A stretch of DNA of 32,982 nucleotides from Nitrospirota bacterium (GTDB lineage: Bacteria > NPL-UPA2 > JAADIA01): assembly GCA_013151555.1 (NCBI GenBank), contig JAADIA010000014.1, positions 1 through 32,982 on the forward strand. The letters run 5' to 3'. The translations under genes were made by a program, and so were the position numbers. Below the pieces are notes generated by a model that ran no database searches, was not told the DNA's origin, and saw only the letters and a list, made by a program, of their open reading frames with translations. Of this stretch, positions 9,618 to 19,503 are shown piece after piece; position 1 is the first letter of the stretch, and each line of letters opens with the position of its first letter.

Positions 9618-10001
9618 GTGGAAACCAAGAAGAAGGTGGATGAAGCCTGGAAAGCAAGAGTGAAGAAAGAAAAGCAAGAGGAAGAGATGGTTGGAGACTC
9701 TAAGGAAGCGAAGGAAACTTCGACAGGGAAAGAGTCGGAGAGCAAAGGATCTCTTCCCGAGCCTGATTTCGCCACCTTTGTCTCCGGGTTGGGAATGCAG
9801 GCTTTACTGTTCATGGGAGAACTTTCTGATCCTCAGGGGGAGGATAAGGTTAAGCCTGATTATCAGCAGGCGAGATATATCATTGACCTTATAGATATGC
9901 TTAGAAAGAAAACAGAAGGGAATCTGAATAAAGAGGAAGCTAACCTTGTGGAGAATCTTCTCTATGACCTGCGAATGAGATACCTTAAGCATGCCGGTTA
10001 A
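9618..10001 (+). CDS. DUF1844-domain protein
   Basis: This small 127-residue protein has a highly charged Lys/Glu-rich N-terminal half (about 1-50) followed by the DUF1844 domain: DFATFVSGLGMQALLFMGEL, then the acidic 'DPQGEDKVKPDYQQARYIIDLIDML' type region and the C-terminal ENLLYDLRMRYL. The family is widespread in delta-like and candidate-phylum bacteria and has no established function. I use a GTG start at 9618, because GGGAGGGA at 9603-9610 sits seven bases upstream and no ATG fits. It is separated from the Memo gene by the heptamer array and is convergent with the envelope operon. Confidence 0.85.
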   Translation: METKKKVDEAWKARVKKEKQEEEMVGDSKEAKETSTGKESESKGSLPEPDFATFVSGLGMQALLFMGELSDPQGEDKVKPDYQQARYIIDLIDMLRKKTEGNLNKEEANLVENLLYDLRMRYLKHAG

Positions 10002-10099: not shown

Positions 10100-10603
10100 T
10101 CAGTAATCGGACCAGAGCTGTTTATCTACGTACTGGGCAAGAATTTCCTGCATCTTAGCCGGGGGGGGAGTGCCGAAATAAGAACTTATCACTGCATGAG
10201 CCATCTCATGAGCCAGAACGCCGTCGTTGGCATTGTCTACGACAATATAAATAGCGTTCTTCTTGTAAGAGTAGAAAGCCACCTTATTTATTTTTTTATA
10301 CATGTTAGAGAGAAATATATCAATATGCATGTCCTCCGGATGCATATCCAATATTGTCTGCACTCTTTCCATAATCCGATCTATTCTATATTTTGCCAGG
10401 GTTGTATCGCTCTCCAGATTGAGCCTTTTTCCTCCTATCCTCCAGATAAATTTGTCTATATCTTTATCATTGGAATAATGGATAGTAGTATATTTTGTCT
10501 CAAAGGTTTTGTAATCCTCCGCCGAAATAGCAGGTGAAAGATAGGTGGAAAGAAAAAGGAGAAGAAGAAGATGCTGAAAGAATCGGGGAGGTAGAGACAT
10601 CAT
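10100..10603 (-). CDS. Secreted HExxH metallopeptidase-like protein
   Basis: This 167-residue exported protein has a signal peptide (about 1-28, ending 'LSPAISA'), a domain reading TIHYSNDKDIDKF and, near the C-terminus, LAHEMAHAVISSYFG with the zinc-binding HExxH, followed by the downstream acidic candidate in MQEILAQYVDKQL. This pattern matches short gluzincin 'peptidase MA-like' proteins. It is last in the six-gene minus operon; its start overlaps the HAMP gene's stop by four bases (or one base, if the second of two adjacent ATGs is used), with GAAAGG just upstream. The substrate is unknown; within this operon a processing role at the envelope is reasonable but inferred. Confidence 0.75.
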   Translation of the reverse strand: MMSLPPRFFQHLLLLLFLSTYLSPAISAEDYKTFETKYTTIHYSNDKDIDKFIWRIGGKRLNLESDTTLAKYRIDRIMERVQTILDMHPEDMHIDIFLSNMYKKINKVAFYSYKKNAIYIVVDNANDGVLAHEMAHAVISSYFGTPPPAKMQEILAQYVDKQLWSDY

Positions 10604-11187
10604 CCTTTCTCTATACTTGAGGTTTTAAACGATTCCATCCCTTCTTTAAGTTTATTCAGTCTTTCTTCAAGGTATTTAAGGGATTGGGGGTCTTCTTTTT
10701 TTGAAAATAGCCGTAAGGATTCACTAACATCTACTTTCATAGCAATTATCTGCCTCTCCATGTTTTCCGTAAATTTATTCAGGGATTCCTGCAGGTCCGT
10801 GAGTTGGTCGGCAGATCTCAACTTTATTCTATAGGTAAGGTCCCCTCTGCTTATATTTTCCAAGCTTCTCTCAAACCGATAGAGGGGCCCGGCCAGCCGG
10901 TGAGAAAGAAGCATGAAGGTGAGCATCCCTGCCAGGGCTACAATTACTCCTACGATGAGGGCGATAATGAGAAAGGTGGAGGAGAAGAATTCGGACGTTC
11001 TTTCGATCGTCAACTGGGAACCTGAGTAACCTGTTGTCAGGGTGCCACTGGATAAATACATAAATAGTCCGGCTATGAGAAAGGATTCCAGAATTAGCAG
11101 AATAGCAAATCTAATAAAAAAGTTAGTCTGAAAGCGCTTCTTAATAAAATATTTTCTTCTTTTTTTAAGCCTTGCCTTAGCTGGCAT
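10600..11187 (-). CDS. HAMP-domain inner-membrane protein without output domain
   Basis: This 195-residue protein has a very basic N-terminus (KARLKKRRKYFIKKR), a first membrane helix (about 23-45), a short periplasmic loop of some 25 residues, a second helix (about 71-95) and a HAMP domain starting at SHRLAGPLYRFERSLENIS and running into ISRGDLTYRIKLR. The remainder is coiled coil to the end; no kinase, cyclase or methyl-accepting signalling domain follows. Such proteins resemble truncated chemoreceptors and could link a periplasmic state to a cytoplasmic partner. The start (ATG 11187, GGGAGA upstream) overlaps the preceding gene by 11 bases, so the two are translationally linked. Confidence 0.8.
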   Translation of the reverse strand: MPAKARLKKRRKYFIKKRFQTNFFIRFAILLILESFLIAGLFMYLSSGTLTTGYSGSQLTIERTSEFFSSTFLIIALIVGVIVALAGMLTFMLLSHRLAGPLYRFERSLENISRGDLTYRIKLRSADQLTDLQESLNKFTENMERQIIAMKVDVSESLRLFSKKEDPQSLKYLEERLNKLKEGMESFKTSSIEKG

Positions 11188-11983
11188 TGTTTTCTCCCGG
11201 AAGTATTTTCCTGTTTATTTTGATCTTTGCTTTACTCCTCATTTCTCCCAGCCATTCCTCGAAAGCCCGCCTCTGCTTTTCTTCTCTTATTCGCTCTTTT
11301 ATCCGGGGGTAAAGTTTGCTGAGGGGAGGTATGGCAAGAGATTCTTTTGCCGTCATGGAGACTAAATAGTATGAATTCTTATCCGGGAATATCTTTATTT
11401 CTCCTTGTTTCATAGAAAAAGCCTTGAGAAGGACTTTAGAGTTTATATCCTCATAGGTTACGGGACCAATCGTTTTTTCCCATTTTATGGACTCTTTCTT
11501 GTTAAGGAGATCTTCCAGGAACTTTTTGTCCTTACTTCTCAAAATTTTAAAGGTGACCCGGGAAGAAAGCTTCTGATAATAGTCTTTCACTTCTTCTTCG
11601 GTAACAAATATAAAGTTTTTCTCCTCCTCCTTTTTATAATCCATGAGGTCTCTGATGAGAGTCTGTTCCCAGAATGACCTTATGGTATTCACAAACCTTT
11701 TCTTTCCCGCCAATTTTTTCTTCATGGCTTCCTGGATAAGGAGACGTCTGTTTATCATAATATTGAGCTGTTCTTCAAATGACCGGGGAGTTAACTTATA
11801 GGAGGGGTCCTGTTGAGCCTTCCGGGCTATCTCTCTTTTCAAATCTTTTACATATATGGGCTCGCCATTGACGGTAGCTGCAATATTCTGGGGCGGCTTA
11901 TTCCGGGCACATCCGACAAGGATAAAGAAAAAAAGGGGAAGGATTAAGAAAGTTCTCTTCCCCATTATTTTTCTATTGGACAT
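11177..11983 (-). CDS. SurA/PrsA-like periplasmic chaperone lipoprotein
   Basis: This 268-residue lipoprotein has a signal sequence with lipobox FILVGC. The mature part begins with the SurA/PrsA N-terminal pattern 'ATVNGEPIYVKDLKREI' and a helical domain (FEEQLNIMINRRLLIQEAMKK), with a central region of parvulin size and a C-terminal helix rich in Lys/Arg. A clear parvulin active site is not obvious, so it may act as a chaperone rather than a prolyl isomerase. The ATG at 11983 overlaps the upstream stop by one base (TAATG) and has a GAGAAG site; an internal Met seven codons in is an alternative. In this operon it is well placed to escort the exported FecR-repeat protein or the barrel protein, which is inference. 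Confidence 0.8.
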   Translation of the reverse strand: MSNRKIMGKRTFLILPLFFFILVGCARNKPPQNIAATVNGEPIYVKDLKREIARKAQQDPSYKLTPRSFEEQLNIMINRRLLIQEAMKKKLAGKKRFVNTIRSFWEQTLIRDLMDYKKEEEKNFIFVTEEEVKDYYQKLSSRVTFKILRSKDKKFLEDLLNKKESIKWEKTIGPVTYEDINSKVLLKAFSMKQGEIKIFPDKNSYYLVSMTAKESLAIPPLSKLYPRIKERIREEKQRRAFEEWLGEMRSKAKIKINRKILPGENNAS

Positions 11984-13458
11984 TATATCTTCTCGTTTTT
12001 AAGCAAATAGCTTTCTTTCCGGGCCAGGAGGGCTAGCCCTATCAGTCCGAAACCAAGAAGAATTATAGTTGAAGGTTCAGGAATAACTGTCCAGGAGAGA
12101 CCGTAATTTTCTGTCCCTTCGTATGGTGTTGGCATAGATTCAACCTCCAGGACATATCTACCCGAACTCAGGTTGTTGAGATAAATATATTCCACATTAT
12201 CGATGTTGCTGCGGCTTTCCTGAATAATATCGTCCGGATAATAGAAGCTGTCAAAGCTTGCCAGAGAAATATCTTCCAGCCCGTCTTCTGGGGCTTTCCG
12301 AAGGACAAGGTCAAGATTCCAGAGCCGGGTTCCGTCCAAATTAGTTCCGTCCCCGTATGAGGTTATTTCTCGATTCCAGGTGAGGGCGGCCTGGAACGCT
12401 TGGTTTGTTCCGGTGACATTGAAGAAGTATTGGTTGATGTCATTGCCGCTTATAGAGCCAAAGTCCCAGCCTCTCGGGGTTACATCTTCGGTATCGCTTG
12501 CTTTCTGCTCTCCGGCGTTAAGGATATCGTAGGAGCGGTCTATACGCAGCGAGCCGGCTCCCTGTTTCCAATCCAGAGGAACACTGATATCATCGCTTGA
12601 GCCGGCATTTCCTTTGTGCCATCCGGGTAGTTTCTCCGCGCCGGCCATCAGAAGACTCTTTATTACCACGGGTGCTTGAGCATCAGATTCCTGACCCTTT
12701 TCCAGTAAGAGAGCTGCCGCTGCTCCCACCACCGGCGTAGCTCCACTGGTACTTCCGAGGGGAGCAACAATATCCGGCTTGGCGCGGGGGCCCTCAATAC
12801 TAGTAGGACCATAACTGCTGATTCCATCGCTACGCCCCACGGCAATTACGTTGTAAGCGCTAAAGGGTATTTTATTAGGTGTGCCGGACATAGAATCGGC
12901 TCCATTGCCTACCCCGGCTACCACTACTATATTTTGTTTCTCAACTACATCGTCAATCCTGCTCAGGCTTTTCAGGTTCCGGTAGGGCAGGGAAGAATAA
13001 CCTATCCAGCTATTATTTATTATCTTCCGGTCTCCGAAACTTACTGGTCCCAATCCCGAATCGACCCTTAAATTATTAAAGAGAAAATCACCGGCTTCAT
13101 AGTTCCAGATATCGGTAATTCCCGGAGCTATACTGGTCAGTCTTCCAAAGAAATTTTTTCCCACGCTTGTGGCATGGCTGCTATCGGTGCTTAAACCGGT
13201 CTTATCGGTGAATGTTTTGCCGGAAAAATCGGGGATGAGATTCACGTCCGACATATATTGCCCGTAAATATCCAGGGCTTCTACCTGCATCACCGGAACT
13301 CCGGTTCCGTCGGGGGTATTGCTTCCCAGGCGGTCTTTAAGGGCCGTGTAGCCGATGTCGTCCTCATAGCTATAAACATTAGCGGCAGAAAATAAAAGAA
13401 ACAGCAATAATAAGGGAAGGAAAAGTGATTTCTTAGGGAAAAGTGATTTCTTAGTCAT
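11983..13458 (-). CDS. Subtilase-like (S8) protein with PEP-CTERM sorting signal
   Basis: This protein of about 491 residues has a signal peptide whose basic n-region contains a duplicated KKSLFP unit. The S8 fold is indicated by GTGVPVMQVEALD (usual Asp position), SSHATSVG (His), VVVAGVGNGADS (oxyanion Asn) and GSTSGATPVVGAAAALLLE (Ser). The catalytic Asp position holds Glu. The C-terminus is a PEP-CTERM tripartite signal: VIPEPST, a hydrophobic helix (IILLGFGLIGLALLA) and a basic cluster, with an extra 11-residue tail. PEP-CTERM proteins are processed by exosortase, which is not encoded here. The ATG at 13458 is chosen because AAGGAG lies eight bases upstream; a GTG nine bases earlier would abut that site. 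It lies 29 bases after the FecR gene. Confidence 0.85.
   Translation of the reverse strand: MTKKSLFPKKSLFLPLLLLFLLFSAANVYSYEDDIGYTALKDRLGSNTPDGTGVPVMQVEALDIYGQYMSDVNLIPDFSGKTFTDKTGLSTDSSHATSVGKNFFGRLTSIAPGITDIWNYEAGDFLFNNLRVDSGLGPVSFGDRKIINNSWIGYSSLPYRNLKSLSRIDDVVEKQNIVVVAGVGNGADSMSGTPNKIPFSAYNVIAVGRSDGISSYGPTSIEGPRAKPDIVAPLGSTSGATPVVGAAAALLLEKGQESDAQAPVVIKSLLMAGAEKLPGWHKGNAGSSDDISVPLDWKQGAGSLRIDRSYDILNAGEQKASDTEDVTPRGWDFGSISGNDINQYFFNVTGTNQAFQAALTWNREITSYGDGTNLDGTRLWNLDLVLRKAPEDGLEDISLASFDSFYYPDDIIQESRSNIDNVEYIYLNNLSSGRYVLEVESMPTPYEGTENYGLSWTVIPEPSTIILLGFGLIGLALLARKESYLLKNEKI
13419..13454. repeat. Perfect 18-bp tandem duplication in a signal peptide
   Basis: Copies at 13419-13436 and 13437-13454 are identical (read GGAAAAGTGATTTCTTAG on the plus strand). 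They encode two KKSLFP units in the basic n-region of the S8/PEP-CTERM protein. The exact identity suggests a recent slippage event. Confidence 0.9.
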
Positions 13459-13487
13459 TTTATTCACTCCTTTCTTGATGATCTTAG

Positions 13488-15578
13488 TTAAAAAGTAACT
13501 CCAGGCGTAGGGATTTTCCAGGTTCCGGAACCTACCCCGGAGAAGTTGCCGGCATCGTAAGTTCCTCCGGCAGCCCCTTTAAAGTTAATATTTCCACCGG
13601 TGGAACCGGTTACCGCTCCAATCCATTTGCCTCCGGACCACTGTGCACCCGTTATCGTAACCGTGTCTCCACCCTTACTCATATTGAGACTCCAGTTGTT
13701 TCCGGTGGGTCCGGTGTGTGTTCCCTCTATCAATGATGCCCAGGCACCCGAGAAATGAGAGAGGAACTCGTTAGTGAAGAAGGTGGTATCCATGGTGCCT
13801 TCGATGCTGCCTCCGGCAGCAAATGCCCCTGCTCCTGTTAACAGCGAAGAATAAGTTTCGGAAACGGGAATGGAGACGAAGTTGTCCAGTCCGCCGATAT
13901 TATCGTAACCCAGGGCAGCAGCATCAAGGGTGGTTATTTCTACCCAGGTGCCCGCTCCGGCGGCCTGCCAGGTAGTGTCTTCATAAGTACCGAGGACATT
14001 TCCGGACATGGTACTGATAGCAATACCTGTTCCTACCGCTCTCATCCGATATCCTCTGAAGGTTCCGGAAAGTTTTCCGGCTGCCCAGTCGGTATCCGCG
14101 GTGCCCTTGATAGTTCCCAGCCAGCTTTCCTCTCCTCCGGCAGTAGAAGAACCTGCCGCCAGGGTCCAGGCAGAAATTAGAGGTGCATAGGAACCTTCAT
14201 ATTTTGCTCTCCATATACCCCAGCTTTGATTTTCTATTCCAATAGTTGCGCTTTCTATATTAAGAGCTTTGATAATACCCCCGTTATCAATTTCAAAGTT
14301 TCCGTTTCCGGCGCCGCTAAAGATTGAAGGCTCAGAGAGGGAGTTAGTTACCGTATCGGCCAGAGTAATGGGACCGACGGGACCAAGGGTAAGAATTCCT
14401 CCTCCGCTCATAGGTGAAGCGTGGGTTCCGGAAAGGTTCCCCGTTAAATATCCGGCTATGCCGTTTCCGTCAACATAAAGTCCGGCGAAAAAGCTATTCC
14501 AGGTTGCCGGAGGCCAATTCCCTGCCATCCATCCGTAGAAACTTCCTCCGTCATTTGAGGTTCCATTTATTGTGTGTAAGAGCCAGGTTGTTTCGCTTCC
14601 GGTGTAAACAGCGTTATTAAGAGTGAAGGGACCGGAATCTGCTCCGGCGGCGATAGAGCCGTTCAAGATACCGCTAAAGATGTCGCTAAAAAATCCTTCC
14701 AGATTGCTGCTGAAAAGAATGGGTGCACTGGTGATGCTGCCTCCGGGGCCGCTGCCTCCACTGGTGTTACTAAGAATGAACGGTCGGGAAAAAGGTTCCT
14801 TTGCGGCATTCGGAATTCGACGATTATCTCCCGGGCCTCCAATGGCCACCGTCTCTGCATAAGCCGTGGATTCTGCCGGAGTGTAACCGAATATGTCTTC
14901 CTTCTTTTTCTTCTTTTTCGGGGCTCGTTTTGCTAATATAGTTCTTTTTGTGGGCGAAGTCTCTGTCTCAAATCTCTTTCTTTCTACATCGAAATAGAAG
15001 CGGGGGGGGGCAGGTTTCTTATCCCAGGGTACTATTGCTGTTGTTCCTGCCGGTAAATTGATCGCCTCACCCGGAAAATTGGCTCCGGTAAGGGAAAGAT
15101 TTCCCTTCACCATCAGCATTCCGGTTGATTGTATCTGGTAAAATACAAATATATCCGAACCTTTAGTTTTACCCGAGGCATTAGGAGTATTAATTATAAA
15201 AGGAGATGAGGTTCGGGACCTTGTTACGATCATCCTTATTTTTCCCCGGGCCAGACTGATATCACCTTTTCTTCTCCTTCCCTTGTCGTCAAGGAGATAT
15301 TTTTCAATTTTTACTACCGAATTAGGGGCTAACCTCAGGATGCTCCCATCCTGAAAAGTTATCTCTGCCTTGGAGAGGCCTTTTGTCCTTAAAATATCAC
15401 CGGCAGAAATGTTTTCATCTACTACTGCCGGTGTGGCCGTTTCCGCACCTGCTTTAAACACATCCACTCTTCCTTCAATGTAGGTAAAATTACCTACTGT
15501 CCCGGCAGAGACAAAAGAAGTAGAGAAAAGCATGATCAAGAAAAACATTGTGGCTTTCCAGCTCTGTCTATTACGCAT
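13488..15578 (-). CDS. FecR-domain secreted repeat protein
   Basis: This 696-residue exported protein has a signal peptide (about 1-25) and a FecR domain (about 30-180) containing the diagnostic VVDENISAGDILRT, FQDGSILRLAPNS and the LARGKIRMIV strand. It continues with a Pro/Lys linker with six consecutive Lys (221-226), then about 450 residues of Gly/Ser/Thr/Trp-rich imperfect beta repeats built on 'W.G...GT' and 'AG..SG...G' units (for example SWLGTIKGTADTDWAAGKLSG). There is no C-terminal anchor. Proteins of this kind are surface or extracellular, with FecR often near an outer-membrane partner. It follows the TPR/barrel gene by 14 bases and starts at an ATG with AAGGAGG nine bases upstream. 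Function unknown; a displayed or shed surface protein is the best reading. Confidence 0.85.
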   Translation of the reverse strand: MRNRQSWKATMFFLIMLFSTSFVSAGTVGNFTYIEGRVDVFKAGAETATPAVVDENISAGDILRTKGLSKAEITFQDGSILRLAPNSVVKIEKYLLDDKGRRRKGDISLARGKIRMIVTRSRTSSPFIINTPNASGKTKGSDIFVFYQIQSTGMLMVKGNLSLTGANFPGEAINLPAGTTAIVPWDKKPAPPRFYFDVERKRFETETSPTKRTILAKRAPKKKKKKEDIFGYTPAESTAYAETVAIGGPGDNRRIPNAAKEPFSRPFILSNTSGGSGPGGSITSAPILFSSNLEGFFSDIFSGILNGSIAAGADSGPFTLNNAVYTGSETTWLLHTINGTSNDGGSFYGWMAGNWPPATWNSFFAGLYVDGNGIAGYLTGNLSGTHASPMSGGGILTLGPVGPITLADTVTNSLSEPSIFSGAGNGNFEIDNGGIIKALNIESATIGIENQSWGIWRAKYEGSYAPLISAWTLAAGSSTAGGEESWLGTIKGTADTDWAAGKLSGTFRGYRMRAVGTGIAISTMSGNVLGTYEDTTWQAAGAGTWVEITTLDAAALGYDNIGGLDNFVSIPVSETYSSLLTGAGAFAAGGSIEGTMDTTFFTNEFLSHFSGAWASLIEGTHTGPTGNNWSLNMSKGGDTVTITGAQWSGGKWIGAVTGSTGGNINFKGAAGGTYDAGNFSGVGSGTWKIPTPGVTF

Positions 15579-15592
15579 AATTTGTTCCCTCC

Positions 15593-17218
15593 TTAAAATT
15601 TATACTCAACACCTAAACTGTAGATATTTCTCTCATAATCATAGATAATGAGGTTGGAATCATCTCTTATATGAATATACTGAAGTTGTAATTCCAGATC
15701 CTTGCGTAGCTTGTAAGCAAGAAGAGTAGATATGGTATATATTTTATCTTTCCTTTTTTTATTAAAGATAGTATGAGTTTCTTGAAAGTCCTGAATAAAT
15801 GCTGAAGAGGAAACATTCAATCTGAATTTCTCTTTAAAAGGAACAAGCAGGCTTATCGTGCCTTTGTTTCCTATGTATCGCCAATTATTTCCATCCGTAT
15901 CCTCTTTGTTCAACTCATAACGCAGGCCGAAAAATCCTTTATTCCGGTTGAAAAAGCGGAACCATCCTCCTCCTACTACAAAATTGTCTGAATCCCGGTT
16001 TTCGTCCGCATTGAGAGGCGTTCTTAAAAAATCTTTTCTCTGAAATTTAAAAAAGACCTGGCCCATCTGAGTCATTCCTATCATAAAGTTATAAAGAGGA
16101 GTTATCCCGGCTGTACTCAAATAGTCCCGATCATCCACAAGAGTACGATTGTAAGTTAAAGGAAAACTCATCATGTTCTTACCCAGATAGTAAGTAGGTG
16201 CCATCGTAAAGTTGTTACTGAAGACATTATATTTCCCCAGGTCATGCTGGTGGGATCGATAAAGAGAATATTGAAGCTTAATTCCATAACGGTCGCTATA
16301 CCTTTTTCCATATTCCCCTTTGAAAGTCAGAACTTCCCGGAAATCATTCTCATCTGTTATGTTTGCAGCCACTGTTGCATCGCTTGGTTTTAAAAGAACA
16401 TTATCATCATATTGATAAGCAAGTCCTAAAGAAAACTTAAAAGGTTTGGCTTCTTCCTCTTCTCTGGCCATCATTTCTATGTATTGATCGGCAAAAGCGG
16501 CGATATCCGAGTTGGGATCAGTAATAACTACCTCCTGGAAAACCTGTTTAGCCGGGGAGAATTCTTTCTTCTTTAAATAGGCAAGACCTATCTGGTAATC
16601 TGCGGTCTGGGTAAGAGTTTTATCCAGTTCCTTAGCGGTGTTGAAAGCTTTAATAGCCTCGGGGTTCTTTCCTTCTTTAAGGAAAATAAGACCTTTTAAA
16701 AAAACTGTCTGGGCTGGCCTTATACCTTTTTCCTCAGCCAATTTCACATTTTTTTCTGCTTTTTTTAATTCATTGAGCTGGTAATAAAGTTCTGCTAATT
16801 CTAAAACTGCCCCGGGTATTTCAGGAGTTAAAGTAACTGCAGCTTCCAGATTAGGTTGAGCTTTCCGGTAGTTCTGAAGTTTTTTGTAGGTGATGCCTAA
16901 ATAATAAGCAGCCATAGAAGAATCCGGTTCCATTTTTCTTGCTTTCTTTAAGACTTTTAAGGCCTCTTCGTAACTTTCTGCTCTATAATAAGTTATTCCT
17001 TGCTCCAGAAGGGTTTGCTGCGCTATCACGGGAGAAGAAAAAGCAACGCCTATAAGTAGGGAAAACATAAGCATTATCCTTGTTACTGACAGTGTTTGCT
17101 TCTTTAAAGCCTCTGAAACCAAGTTTTTCATCTTTAATTCCCTGAATCCTCTGTTCTTTATCTTTAATTCACTGCAATTTTCGTGCCAGGAAAAGAAGAA
17201 AGTTCGCTTTCTCATCAC
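15593..17218 (-). CDS. TPR plus outer-membrane beta-barrel protein
   Basis: This 541-residue protein has the following order: an N-terminal segment, signal peptide (ending SSPVIAQQ, about residue 67), five or so TPR units (about 68-250, e.g. GITYYRAESYEEALKVLKKA), an acidic linker (MMAREEEEA) and a C-terminal domain of about 270 residues with alternating aromatic strands that ends SLGVEYKF, a terminal Phe typical of outer-membrane barrels. The TPR-then-barrel order recalls Slam exporters. The strongest ribosome site (AAGGAGGT) precedes the ATG pair at 17218/17215, which gives a 29-residue extension before the conventional signal peptide; an ATG at 17131 with AGGGA would start directly at it. 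It is first in the operon, so its product may be the export gate for the FecR protein behind it. Confidence 0.82.
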   Translation of the reverse strand: MMRKRTFFFSWHENCSELKIKNRGFRELKMKNLVSEALKKQTLSVTRIMLMFSLLIGVAFSSPVIAQQTLLEQGITYYRAESYEEALKVLKKARKMEPDSSMAAYYLGITYKKLQNYRKAQPNLEAAVTLTPEIPGAVLELAELYYQLNELKKAEKNVKLAEEKGIRPAQTVFLKGLIFLKEGKNPEAIKAFNTAKELDKTLTQTADYQIGLAYLKKKEFSPAKQVFQEVVITDPNSDIAAFADQYIEMMAREEEEAKPFKFSLGLAYQYDDNVLLKPSDATVAANITDENDFREVLTFKGEYGKRYSDRYGIKLQYSLYRSHQHDLGKYNVFSNNFTMAPTYYLGKNMMSFPLTYNRTLVDDRDYLSTAGITPLYNFMIGMTQMGQVFFKFQRKDFLRTPLNADENRDSDNFVVGGGWFRFFNRNKGFFGLRYELNKEDTDGNNWRYIGNKGTISLLVPFKEKFRLNVSSSAFIQDFQETHTIFNKKRKDKIYTISTLLAYKLRKDLELQLQYIHIRDDSNLIIYDYERNIYSLGVEYKF

Positions 17219-17794: not shown

Positions 17795-18730
17795 GTGACT
17801 ATCGGTTTGGTCTATCATCCTGATTATCTGAAGCATGATTTGAAAATTCATCCGGAAAATGCCGGCCGTTTAAGAGAGATCATCAAAATTCTTGAGAAAA
17901 AGAGACTGATGGAGAAATTAAGGAGCATTTCTCCTCGAAGAGCAACTGTAGAAGAGTTGGAATATGTTCACCGAAGTGCTTACATCCACAAAGTTGCTTC
18001 TCTCTGTCGAGAAGGGAAAAGGCGGCTGGATGCCGACACTTATATTTCCCCCTTTTCTTTTCAGGTAGCTCTTCTGGCTGTGGGAGGACTCCTGAGCGCT
18101 GCCGACGCAGTTATCCAGGGAAAAGTAAAGAGTGCCTTAGCCTTGATTCGTCCTCCCGGCCATCATGCCGGTCCAGGTAAAGGGATGGGGTTTTGCCTTT
18201 TTAATAATGTAGCTGTTGCTGCTCGTTATGTTCAGGAAAGGTATCACCTTAAAAGAGTTCTTATCATTGATTGGGATGTCCACCATGGGAATGGCACCCA
18301 GGATATTTTTTACGATGACCCTTCCGTCTTTTACGTTTCTTTTCACCAGGCTTCTCTTTTTCCGGGAACAGGATTGGTTGAGGAGAGGGGAAGAGGGCAA
18401 GGGAAAGGTTACAATATGAATTTTCCTTTTCCTTCCGGGAGCACGGGTAAGGATTATCTGGATATCTTTTCCCGGGTTCTTATTCCCCGGGTGCGGGAAT
18501 TTGTTCCTGAGATAATCTTTATCTCCGCTGGATTCGATGGGCATAAGGATGACCCGTTAGGGGGAATGAACCTGACCGAAGAGGATTTCGGAAAATTTAC
18601 CGACTTAATCAGAGATATGGCTGAAGATGTCTGTGAGGGAAAAATTATATCTGCTTTAGAGGGGGGATATAACCTCCGGGTTCTTCCCCTTTGTATTCTG
18701 GCCCATCTCCAATCTTTAAGGGGAGAATGA
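17795..18730 (+). CDS. Histone deacetylase-family (AcuC/class II-like) hydrolase
   Basis: This 311-residue enzyme of the arginase/deacetylase fold has the full set of family motifs: IRPPGHHA (His123, His124), IIDWDVHHGNGTQD (zinc ligands Asp161 and His163), FISAGFDGHKDDPLGG (zinc ligand Asp248) and LEGGYN (Tyr292, transition-state position). Bacterial members remove acetyl groups from lysines, polyamines or other acylated amines; the substrate cannot be told here. The GTG start at 17795 is supported by AAAAGG about ten bases upstream and by the family's N-terminus (TIGLVYHPDY). Its stop overlaps the ATG of the M48 gene as ATGA, so the two are co-translated. Confidence 0.95.
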   Translation: MTIGLVYHPDYLKHDLKIHPENAGRLREIIKILEKKRLMEKLRSISPRRATVEELEYVHRSAYIHKVASLCREGKRRLDADTYISPFSFQVALLAVGGLLSAADAVIQGKVKSALALIRPPGHHAGPGKGMGFCLFNNVAVAARYVQERYHLKRVLIIDWDVHHGNGTQDIFYDDPSVFYVSFHQASLFPGTGLVEERGRGQGKGYNMNFPFPSGSTGKDYLDIFSRVLIPRVREFVPEIIFISAGFDGHKDDPLGGMNLTEEDFGKFTDLIRDMAEDVCEGKIISALEGGYNLRVLPLCILAHLQSLRGE

Positions 18731-19503
18731 AATTGACAAAGCTCTTTAAAATTGCCTTTCCTATCTTTCTCTTATTCCTGACCGGCTGCGCTACTACCTA
18801 TAACCCGGCCACCGGTAAAGAAGAGACAAGCATGTACTCTCGCGAGAAAGAGATTGCCATTGGTCAGGCCATGGCTAAGAAATTGGAGAAAAAATATAAG
18901 ATAAGTAAAGAGAAAGCTCAGTATGTGGAATGGATTGGGAGAAGGGTGGCTTTTGCTTCCGACCGAATAGCCCTCCCTTATAGCTTCAAGATTCTGGACC
19001 GGAAAGACCTTAACGCTCTGGCTCTTCCCGGGGGACCGGTATATGTTACCAAGGCTTTGGTAGACAAAGTGAACGAGGATGAGTTAGCGGTGGTCCTCGG
19101 TCATGAGATTGCCCATATTACTGCCCGCCACGGAGTAAAGAGACTCCAGGCCTATAAGCTCTATACTCTCCTTACCGTTGCGCTTATGGCTAAAAAGGGA
19201 ACCCGGGAGGCGGCAAAATTTACTGCCCAGGCCATTAATATTCTCTCCCTGGCGTACAGTCAGGAAGATGAACTTCTGGCGGACCGTTTGGGAACAGGTT
19301 ATGCCTACAAAGCCGGATTCGATCCGCGGGCAGCCTTAACTCTTCTGAAAAAGTTACAGGAAGAGGAAAAAAAGAGGGGGAGCAGACGCGGCTGGCTTTC
19401 CACTCACCCCCTTAGTTCGGAAAGAATCGCGGCTCTGAAAGAATATCTGAAGACGTTGCCTCTAAAAACGAACACCCTTTCTCCCGACTCCTCTGATAAA
19501 TGA
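18727..19503 (+). CDS. M48-family zinc metalloprotease lipoprotein
   Basis: This 258-residue lipoprotein has signal peptide MKLTKLFKIAFPIFLLF with lipobox LTGC (Cys21). The M48 catalytic domain contains VVLGHEIAHITARHG (His126, Glu127, His130) and the third ligand in EDELLADRLG (Glu182). The end 'LSTHPLSSERIAALKEYL' is typical of the M48C type (BepA/LoiP-like). Such proteases sit in the periplasm on the outer membrane and clear misfolded barrel proteins. The ATG at 18727 overlaps the deacetylase stop (ATGA) and has AGGGGA upstream; an ATG at 18691 lies inside the deacetylase gene and would put 12 residues before the lipoprotein signal, so I reject it. Confidence 0.93.
   Translation: MKLTKLFKIAFPIFLLFLTGCATTYNPATGKEETSMYSREKEIAIGQAMAKKLEKKYKISKEKAQYVEWIGRRVAFASDRIALPYSFKILDRKDLNALALPGGPVYVTKALVDKVNEDELAVVLGHEIAHITARHGVKRLQAYKLYTLLTVALMAKKGTREAAKFTAQAINILSLAYSQEDELLADRLGTGYAYKAGFDPRAALTLLKKLQEEEKKRGSRRGWLSTHPLSSERIAALKEYLKTLPLKTNTLSPDSSDK

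Follow-up and report, generated by a model that had tools for sequence, protein, structure and literature searches.

In the Campylobacterota, a gene cluster encoding a FecR outer-membrane protein, a tetratricopeptide repeat (TPR) protein, a CHASE2 adenylate cyclase and a cyclic AMP (cAMP) phosphodiesterase has been noted as a probable signalling pathway (PMC9239204). The Burkholderia biofilm operon BiofilmReg encodes a response regulator, a LysM-FecR protein, a CHASE2 histidine kinase and a DUF4136 protein (PMC5192318); CHASE2 is a common extracellular sensor domain, and its input is described there as unknown. In magnetotactic bacteria a CHASE2 cyclase gene comes after that of MtxA, a TPR/Ig protein of the periplasm (PMC4439547), and in Sinorhizobium meliloti the cAMP regulator Clr has both a FecR protein and a TPR protein among its targets (PMC5498481). 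Here we describe a six-gene operon in contig JAADIA010000014.1 of a Nitrospirota bacterium (assembly GCA_013151555.1); the whole stretch analysed, 32,982 nucleotides, is called the window. The first two genes encode a TPR protein that ends in a beta-barrel (TPR-barrel) and a secreted FecR protein with Gly/Trp-rich repeats. The operon seems to be one form of a signalling and surface-assembly unit that has received little study, not a wholly new system.

All six open reading frames (ORFs) lie on the minus strand, from 17218 down to 10100:

15593..17218, minus strand: TPR-barrel outer-membrane protein with signal peptide, TPR repeats and C-terminal beta-barrel (hmmscan, 20 homologous loci, AlphaFold2 for the TPR part only)
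13488..15578, minus strand: secreted FecR-domain protein with a C-terminal Gly/Trp-rich repeat domain (FecR PF04773, 1.4e-11)
11983..13467, minus strand: secreted subtilisin-like protease with a PEP-CTERM sorting signal, lineage-specific (Peptidase_S8, 1.1e-10)
11177..11983, minus strand: SurA/EpsD-like lipoprotein chaperone with a parvulin-type (Rotamase_2) region and lipobox LVGC (profile scan)
10600..11187, minus strand: HAMP protein with two transmembrane segments and a coiled-coil tail, no output domain (HAMP, 6.4e-8)
10100..10603, minus strand: small secreted gluzincin-like HExxH protein (conserved motif)

The initial annotation had read these genes as a single transcription unit of envelope proteins, and the ORFs, their order, gaps and overlaps were all confirmed. 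The gap between the TPR-barrel and FecR genes is 14 bases; that between the FecR and subtilase genes is 20 bases counted from GTG 13467, or 29 from ATG 13458. The later genes overlap by 1 base (subtilase/SurA-like), 11 bases (SurA-like/HAMP) and 4 bases (HAMP/HExxH). Profile searches likewise upheld the domain calls made earlier (TPR and barrel, FecR, Peptidase_S8 with PEP-CTERM, SurA-type, HAMP). The operon is flanked by a divergent histone-deacetylase-like gene (17795, plus strand) and a convergent DUF1844 gene (9618-10001, plus strand), and a promoter and terminator scan found no clear signal exceeding that of shuffled sequences. The operon is more than a chance grouping, because its sub-blocks recur in unrelated genomes.

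The strongest of these associations joins the first two genes. An initial search returned a full-length TPR-barrel homologue in genome G050 (29% identity, 5.5e-66), with a FecR gene directly after it. A barrel-only profile, run on 386 genomes spread over the domain, found the family in 20 of them; with G061 the total is 21 genomes in 17 families. Hits were selected without regard to FecR adjacency, though the profile's five seed sequences came from the initial search. When the window and the G181 locus, which is cut by a contig end, are set aside, a FecR-domain gene adjoins the TPR-barrel gene in 19/19 assessable loci. In 16 of them it is downstream and in two upstream, each time on the strand of the TPR-barrel gene; in the remaining locus it is on the opposite strand. 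Distance matrices for the barrel and FecR proteins, compared over 20 pairs, are correlated (Mantel r = 0.81), and none of 5,000 permutations gave a value as high. This is evidence of co-inheritance and not of contact between the products, which we infer. These results bear out the special link between the two proteins that had been proposed, and the near-obligate pairing across 17 families is an addition of the present work.

The genes that follow the pair vary. Secreted proteins of Ig-like and carboxypeptidase-regulatory-like type are encoded there in the phylum of G050; G260 has a C11 peptidase, and other loci have lipoproteins that belong to no family. Among the nine genomes of the window's own phylum the TPR-barrel is found in the window genome only. 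A barrel match in G006, a member of that phylum, was rejected on reading the sequence as an EpsL-like barrel that adjoins a Wza-type export protein and falls outside the family. A scan of named genomes with a three-sequence barrel alignment gave Deltaproteobacteria bacterium RBG_13_61_14 as the sole full-length homologue; the other matches were short and confined to the TPR region. The G181 protein is 49% identical to that of the window, and its gene is followed directly by one for a Crp-family cNMP-binding regulator (L118:1881-4082).

The likely start of the window's TPR-barrel gene is ATG 17215, after AAGGAGG, with an internal alternative at ATG 17131. By profile, the protein has TPR repeats first and then, at its C-terminus, the end of a barrel similar to DUF2860, BBP2_2 and EpsL. 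An AlphaFold2 model built on two sequences only is confident for the TPR part (blocks mostly at pLDDT 85-95) and falls below pLDDT 50 in the barrel; because the barrel is not confident, Foldseek matches in the PDB show TPR proteins only. Profile searches of the PDB with the barrel, the FecR protein and the HExxH protein gave no matches. A TPR partner that carries a barrel-type C-terminus is itself an addition to the FecR/TPR/CHASE2 kind of cluster as known before.

The repeat domain of the FecR protein spans about residues 285-696 and is rare: it is common to the window, G270, G181 and G244, or 4/341 genomes. In two of these genomes, the window's and G270, it is fused to FecR. The proteins differ strongly in length: the window's has 696 residues, that of G270 about 2033 and that of G181 no fewer than 1228. 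No Pfam family, and thus no TbpB-type cargo domain, matches the repeat domain up to E = 10; modelled alone with AlphaFold2 the domain reached pLDDT 34, which is unusable. The gene order in G270 is TPR-barrel, FecR-repeat, Skp, with a CHASE2 gene adjoining. In G244 the genes for a repeat-domain protein, a secreted protein of 425 residues and a CHASE2 protein stand in a row (L183:1-4937).

The last three genes of the operon accompany the repeat protein elsewhere. In G181, an unrelated genome, the block runs in this order: the repeat protein, Skp (OmpH, 3.5e-26), and homologues of the SurA-like (36%), HAMP (42%) and HExxH (38%) proteins. The genes are therefore not adjacent in this genome alone, which the initial annotation had named as grounds for doubting the operon. 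A further addition of this work is that the chaperone-HAMP-HExxH block goes together with the form of FecR that bears repeats. Parts of the block also occur separately: a SurA-like gene lies next to a HAMP gene in G034, and a HAMP gene next to an HExxH gene in G006. The HAMP family is present in 50/386 genomes, often adjoining multihaem-cytochrome-like or pseudopilin-like proteins, and the HExxH protein in only 5/386. In the SurA-like lipoprotein, SurA_N_3 scores above its cut-off and Rotamase_2 just below, and the best NCBIfam match is EpsD; the HAMP match of the next protein likewise exceeds its cut-off. The HExxH motif reads HEMAH, with a glutamate 16 residues later, and AQYV; motif and downstream glutamate are invariant in three homologues, no Pfam or PDB match was found, and gluzincin activity is putative.

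No counterpart of the subtilase turned up in those of the other fetched loci that were searched with its sequence. Its sorting signal is clear (PF07589, 26.9 bits vs a cut-off of 20.7; TIGR02595, 22 vs 16), and this signal has a possible partner enzyme because the genome encodes exosortases, two in number (contigs C15 and C51), together with 17 PEP-CTERM matches. The protein thus combines the sorting signal and the exosortase in the genome that mark an exosortase substrate. Reading of its sequence finds the His (SSHATS) and Ser (TSGATP) motifs in place, with Glu at the usual Asp position (GVPVMQVEA); the enzyme may be inactive or of an atypical kind.

The initial annotation overlooked a second-messenger enzyme associated with the pair: in nine loci a CHASE2 protein adjoins the TPR-barrel and FecR genes. 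A Pfam scan of eight of these CHASE2 proteins gave a Guanylate_cyc output for seven and an HD-GYP output for one. CHASE2 occurs in 21/21 genomes with the barrel and in 2/14 control genomes, an enrichment that we treat as supporting evidence only, because the controls were not matched. The single CHASE2 protein of the window genome, on contig C30, has the architecture CHASE2-GAF-HD-GYP. It is preceded by a HAMP protein of the window's family (28% identity) and a FecR protein fused to a pilin-type N-terminal methylation signal (N_methyl). The trio, which stands in a row (L117:2812-6752), is possibly a pilus-linked cyclic di-GMP (c-di-GMP) sensor in the window's own genome.

The locus resembles the Campylobacterota cluster in its clustered FecR and TPR proteins and, in the loci of many relatives, in the CHASE2 cyclase. 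It differs in that the window has the secreted FecR beside the TPR protein without a cyclase, in the fusion of FecR to repeats, and in the added SurA-like, HAMP, HExxH and subtilase genes; the two TPR proteins are likened by description. The pairing of a secreted FecR with a CHASE2 sensor in relatives' loci is like that of the Burkholderia operon, which, unlike the loci here, has a kinase in place of a cyclase and lacks the TPR-barrel and the chaperone/HAMP/HExxH block. A looser analogy can be drawn to FecA-FecR, where the FecR domain partners an outer-membrane barrel with a periplasmic domain; the window's FecR is secreted, unlike that system, and no FecA-type TonB-dependent receptor or FecI sigma factor is found among the six ORFs. 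The earlier statement that no such system had been described holds for the exact six-gene set, and is limited to it because the Campylobacterota cluster with FecR, TPR and CHASE2-cyclase genes had been published (PMC9239204).

We consider it about an even bet (probability roughly 0.5) that the products work as one module of the envelope, with the TPR-barrel holding the FecR-repeat protein or delivering it, dedicated chaperones assisting, and signalling proteins of the inner membrane reading its state. The TPR-barrel would be an outer-membrane protein whose TPR superhelix lies on the periplasmic side and binds the secreted FecR protein there. The FecR domain would serve as the docking and relay part, and the C-terminal Gly/Trp repeats as the surface or outer-periplasmic part. 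The SurA-like lipoprotein would keep the repeat protein foldable, joined or replaced by Skp in relatives, and the HExxH protein and PEP-CTERM subtilase might trim or clear it. In relatives, a CHASE2 adenylate cyclase or HD-GYP enzyme beside the pair would read the state of assembly at the inner membrane; in the window this task may fall to the HAMP protein, and possibly also to the CHASE2-HD-GYP protein from contig C30. If the pair is the outer-membrane end of CHASE2 signalling in many bacteria, it offers a testable path from the cell surface to cAMP or c-di-GMP. The rare repeat protein, the dedicated chaperones and the HAMP protein without an output suggest that surface-protein assembly itself may be sensed.

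Several observations weigh against this module. Adjacency and co-inheritance do not demonstrate contact between the TPR-barrel and FecR proteins, and the AlphaFold2 models are too weak to judge the barrel or the repeats. In G181 the repeat protein and the TPR-barrel are on different contigs, and the FecR part of that repeat protein was not seen (the stretch is masked or unassembled), leaving repeats only. The window operon has no CHASE2 gene, the genome's CHASE2 protein has FecR and HAMP partners of its own, so that a direct link to the operon is unproven, and the 14 control genomes allow no more than a loose comparison for CHASE2. The occurrence of FecR without the barrel, which the initial annotation had said would tell against its proposal, is found in part: FecR proteins lack a barrel on contig C30 of the window genome, and the Gly/Trp repeat protein is present in G244, which has no detectable barrel.

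Export in the manner of Slam (type XI secretion) is a somewhat unlikely alternative. Here the TPR-barrel would be the translocon, the FecR-repeat protein or the variable product of the third gene its client, with SurA or Skp delivering and signalling secondary. Slam systems (DUF560, with TbpB-type clients; PMC8406197, PMC9090332) share with the locus the order of TPR and barrel and an adjacent secreted partner. This order, seen by profile and in the confident part of the AlphaFold2 model, is the part of the earlier proposal of a Slam-like exporter that stood. A constant TPR-barrel and FecR pair preceding dissimilar secreted proteins (Ig-like/carboxypeptidase-regulatory-like proteins, C11 peptidase, lipoproteins of no recognized family, fused repeats) would also suit a translocon with changing clients, and both G181 and G270 have a gene for Skp, the holdase for Slam clients (PMC9090332), next to that of the repeat protein. 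Slam identity itself was rejected: the window protein has no match to the SlamB barrel at E <= 0.001, nor does its FecR partner carry a TbpB-type domain. The TPR_Slam model matches 11 of the 21 family members, although TPR models cross-match; with the best 25 of 36 families tallied in the relatives, up to four other members could match SlamB. The barrel-less repeat protein of G244 is awkward for export too, and the CHASE2 association favours signalling.

A more novel reading would make the module a hitherto unrecognised assembly line at the outer membrane, in which a TPR-barrel family outside DUF560 exports or displays FecR-repeat surface proteins with its own Skp and SurA, under surveillance by HAMP and HExxH proteins, and reports status to second-messenger enzymes (cAMP or c-di-GMP). 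We regard this as unlikely.

It is improbable that only the TPR-barrel and FecR pair is functional, the other four genes being general envelope quality control that is merely co-transcribed. The SurA-HAMP and HAMP-HExxH pairs do lie away from any repeat protein seen in G034 and G006, members of the HAMP family occur widely next to cytochromes and pseudopilins, and the subtilase is unique to the window among the loci examined. However, in G181 the SurA-HAMP-HExxH block comes after the rare Gly/Trp repeat protein that the window also has, and neither the repeat domain nor the HExxH protein is common enough to fit such a collection easily.

Least probable is a role in polysaccharide secretion, with the TPR-barrel a PgaA/EpsL-like exporter and the operon part of an exosortase/exopolysaccharide system: the barrel end is weakly similar to EpsL and the lipoprotein to EpsD, and the genome has exosortases and PEP-CTERM proteins, but the scores by which an EpsL/EpsD exosortase-B system was rejected are far under curated cut-offs (EpsL, 32.8 bits vs 275; EpsD, 42 vs 108.9), the unit has no glycosyltransferase or polymerase, both exosortases are on other contigs with no operon-type genes nearby, and the constant partner of the barrel is FecR, not a synthase.

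Two minor observations concern the HAMP family and the neighbourhood of the operon. Small HAMP-only membrane proteins of this widespread family are encoded beside multihaem-cytochrome-like or pseudopilin-like genes at six loci (L151, L153, L155, L157, L161 and L165). In the window, an M48-family metallopeptidase lipoprotein gene (18691-19503) lies just after the divergent histone-deacetylase-like gene and upstream of a gene for a 660-residue TPR protein.

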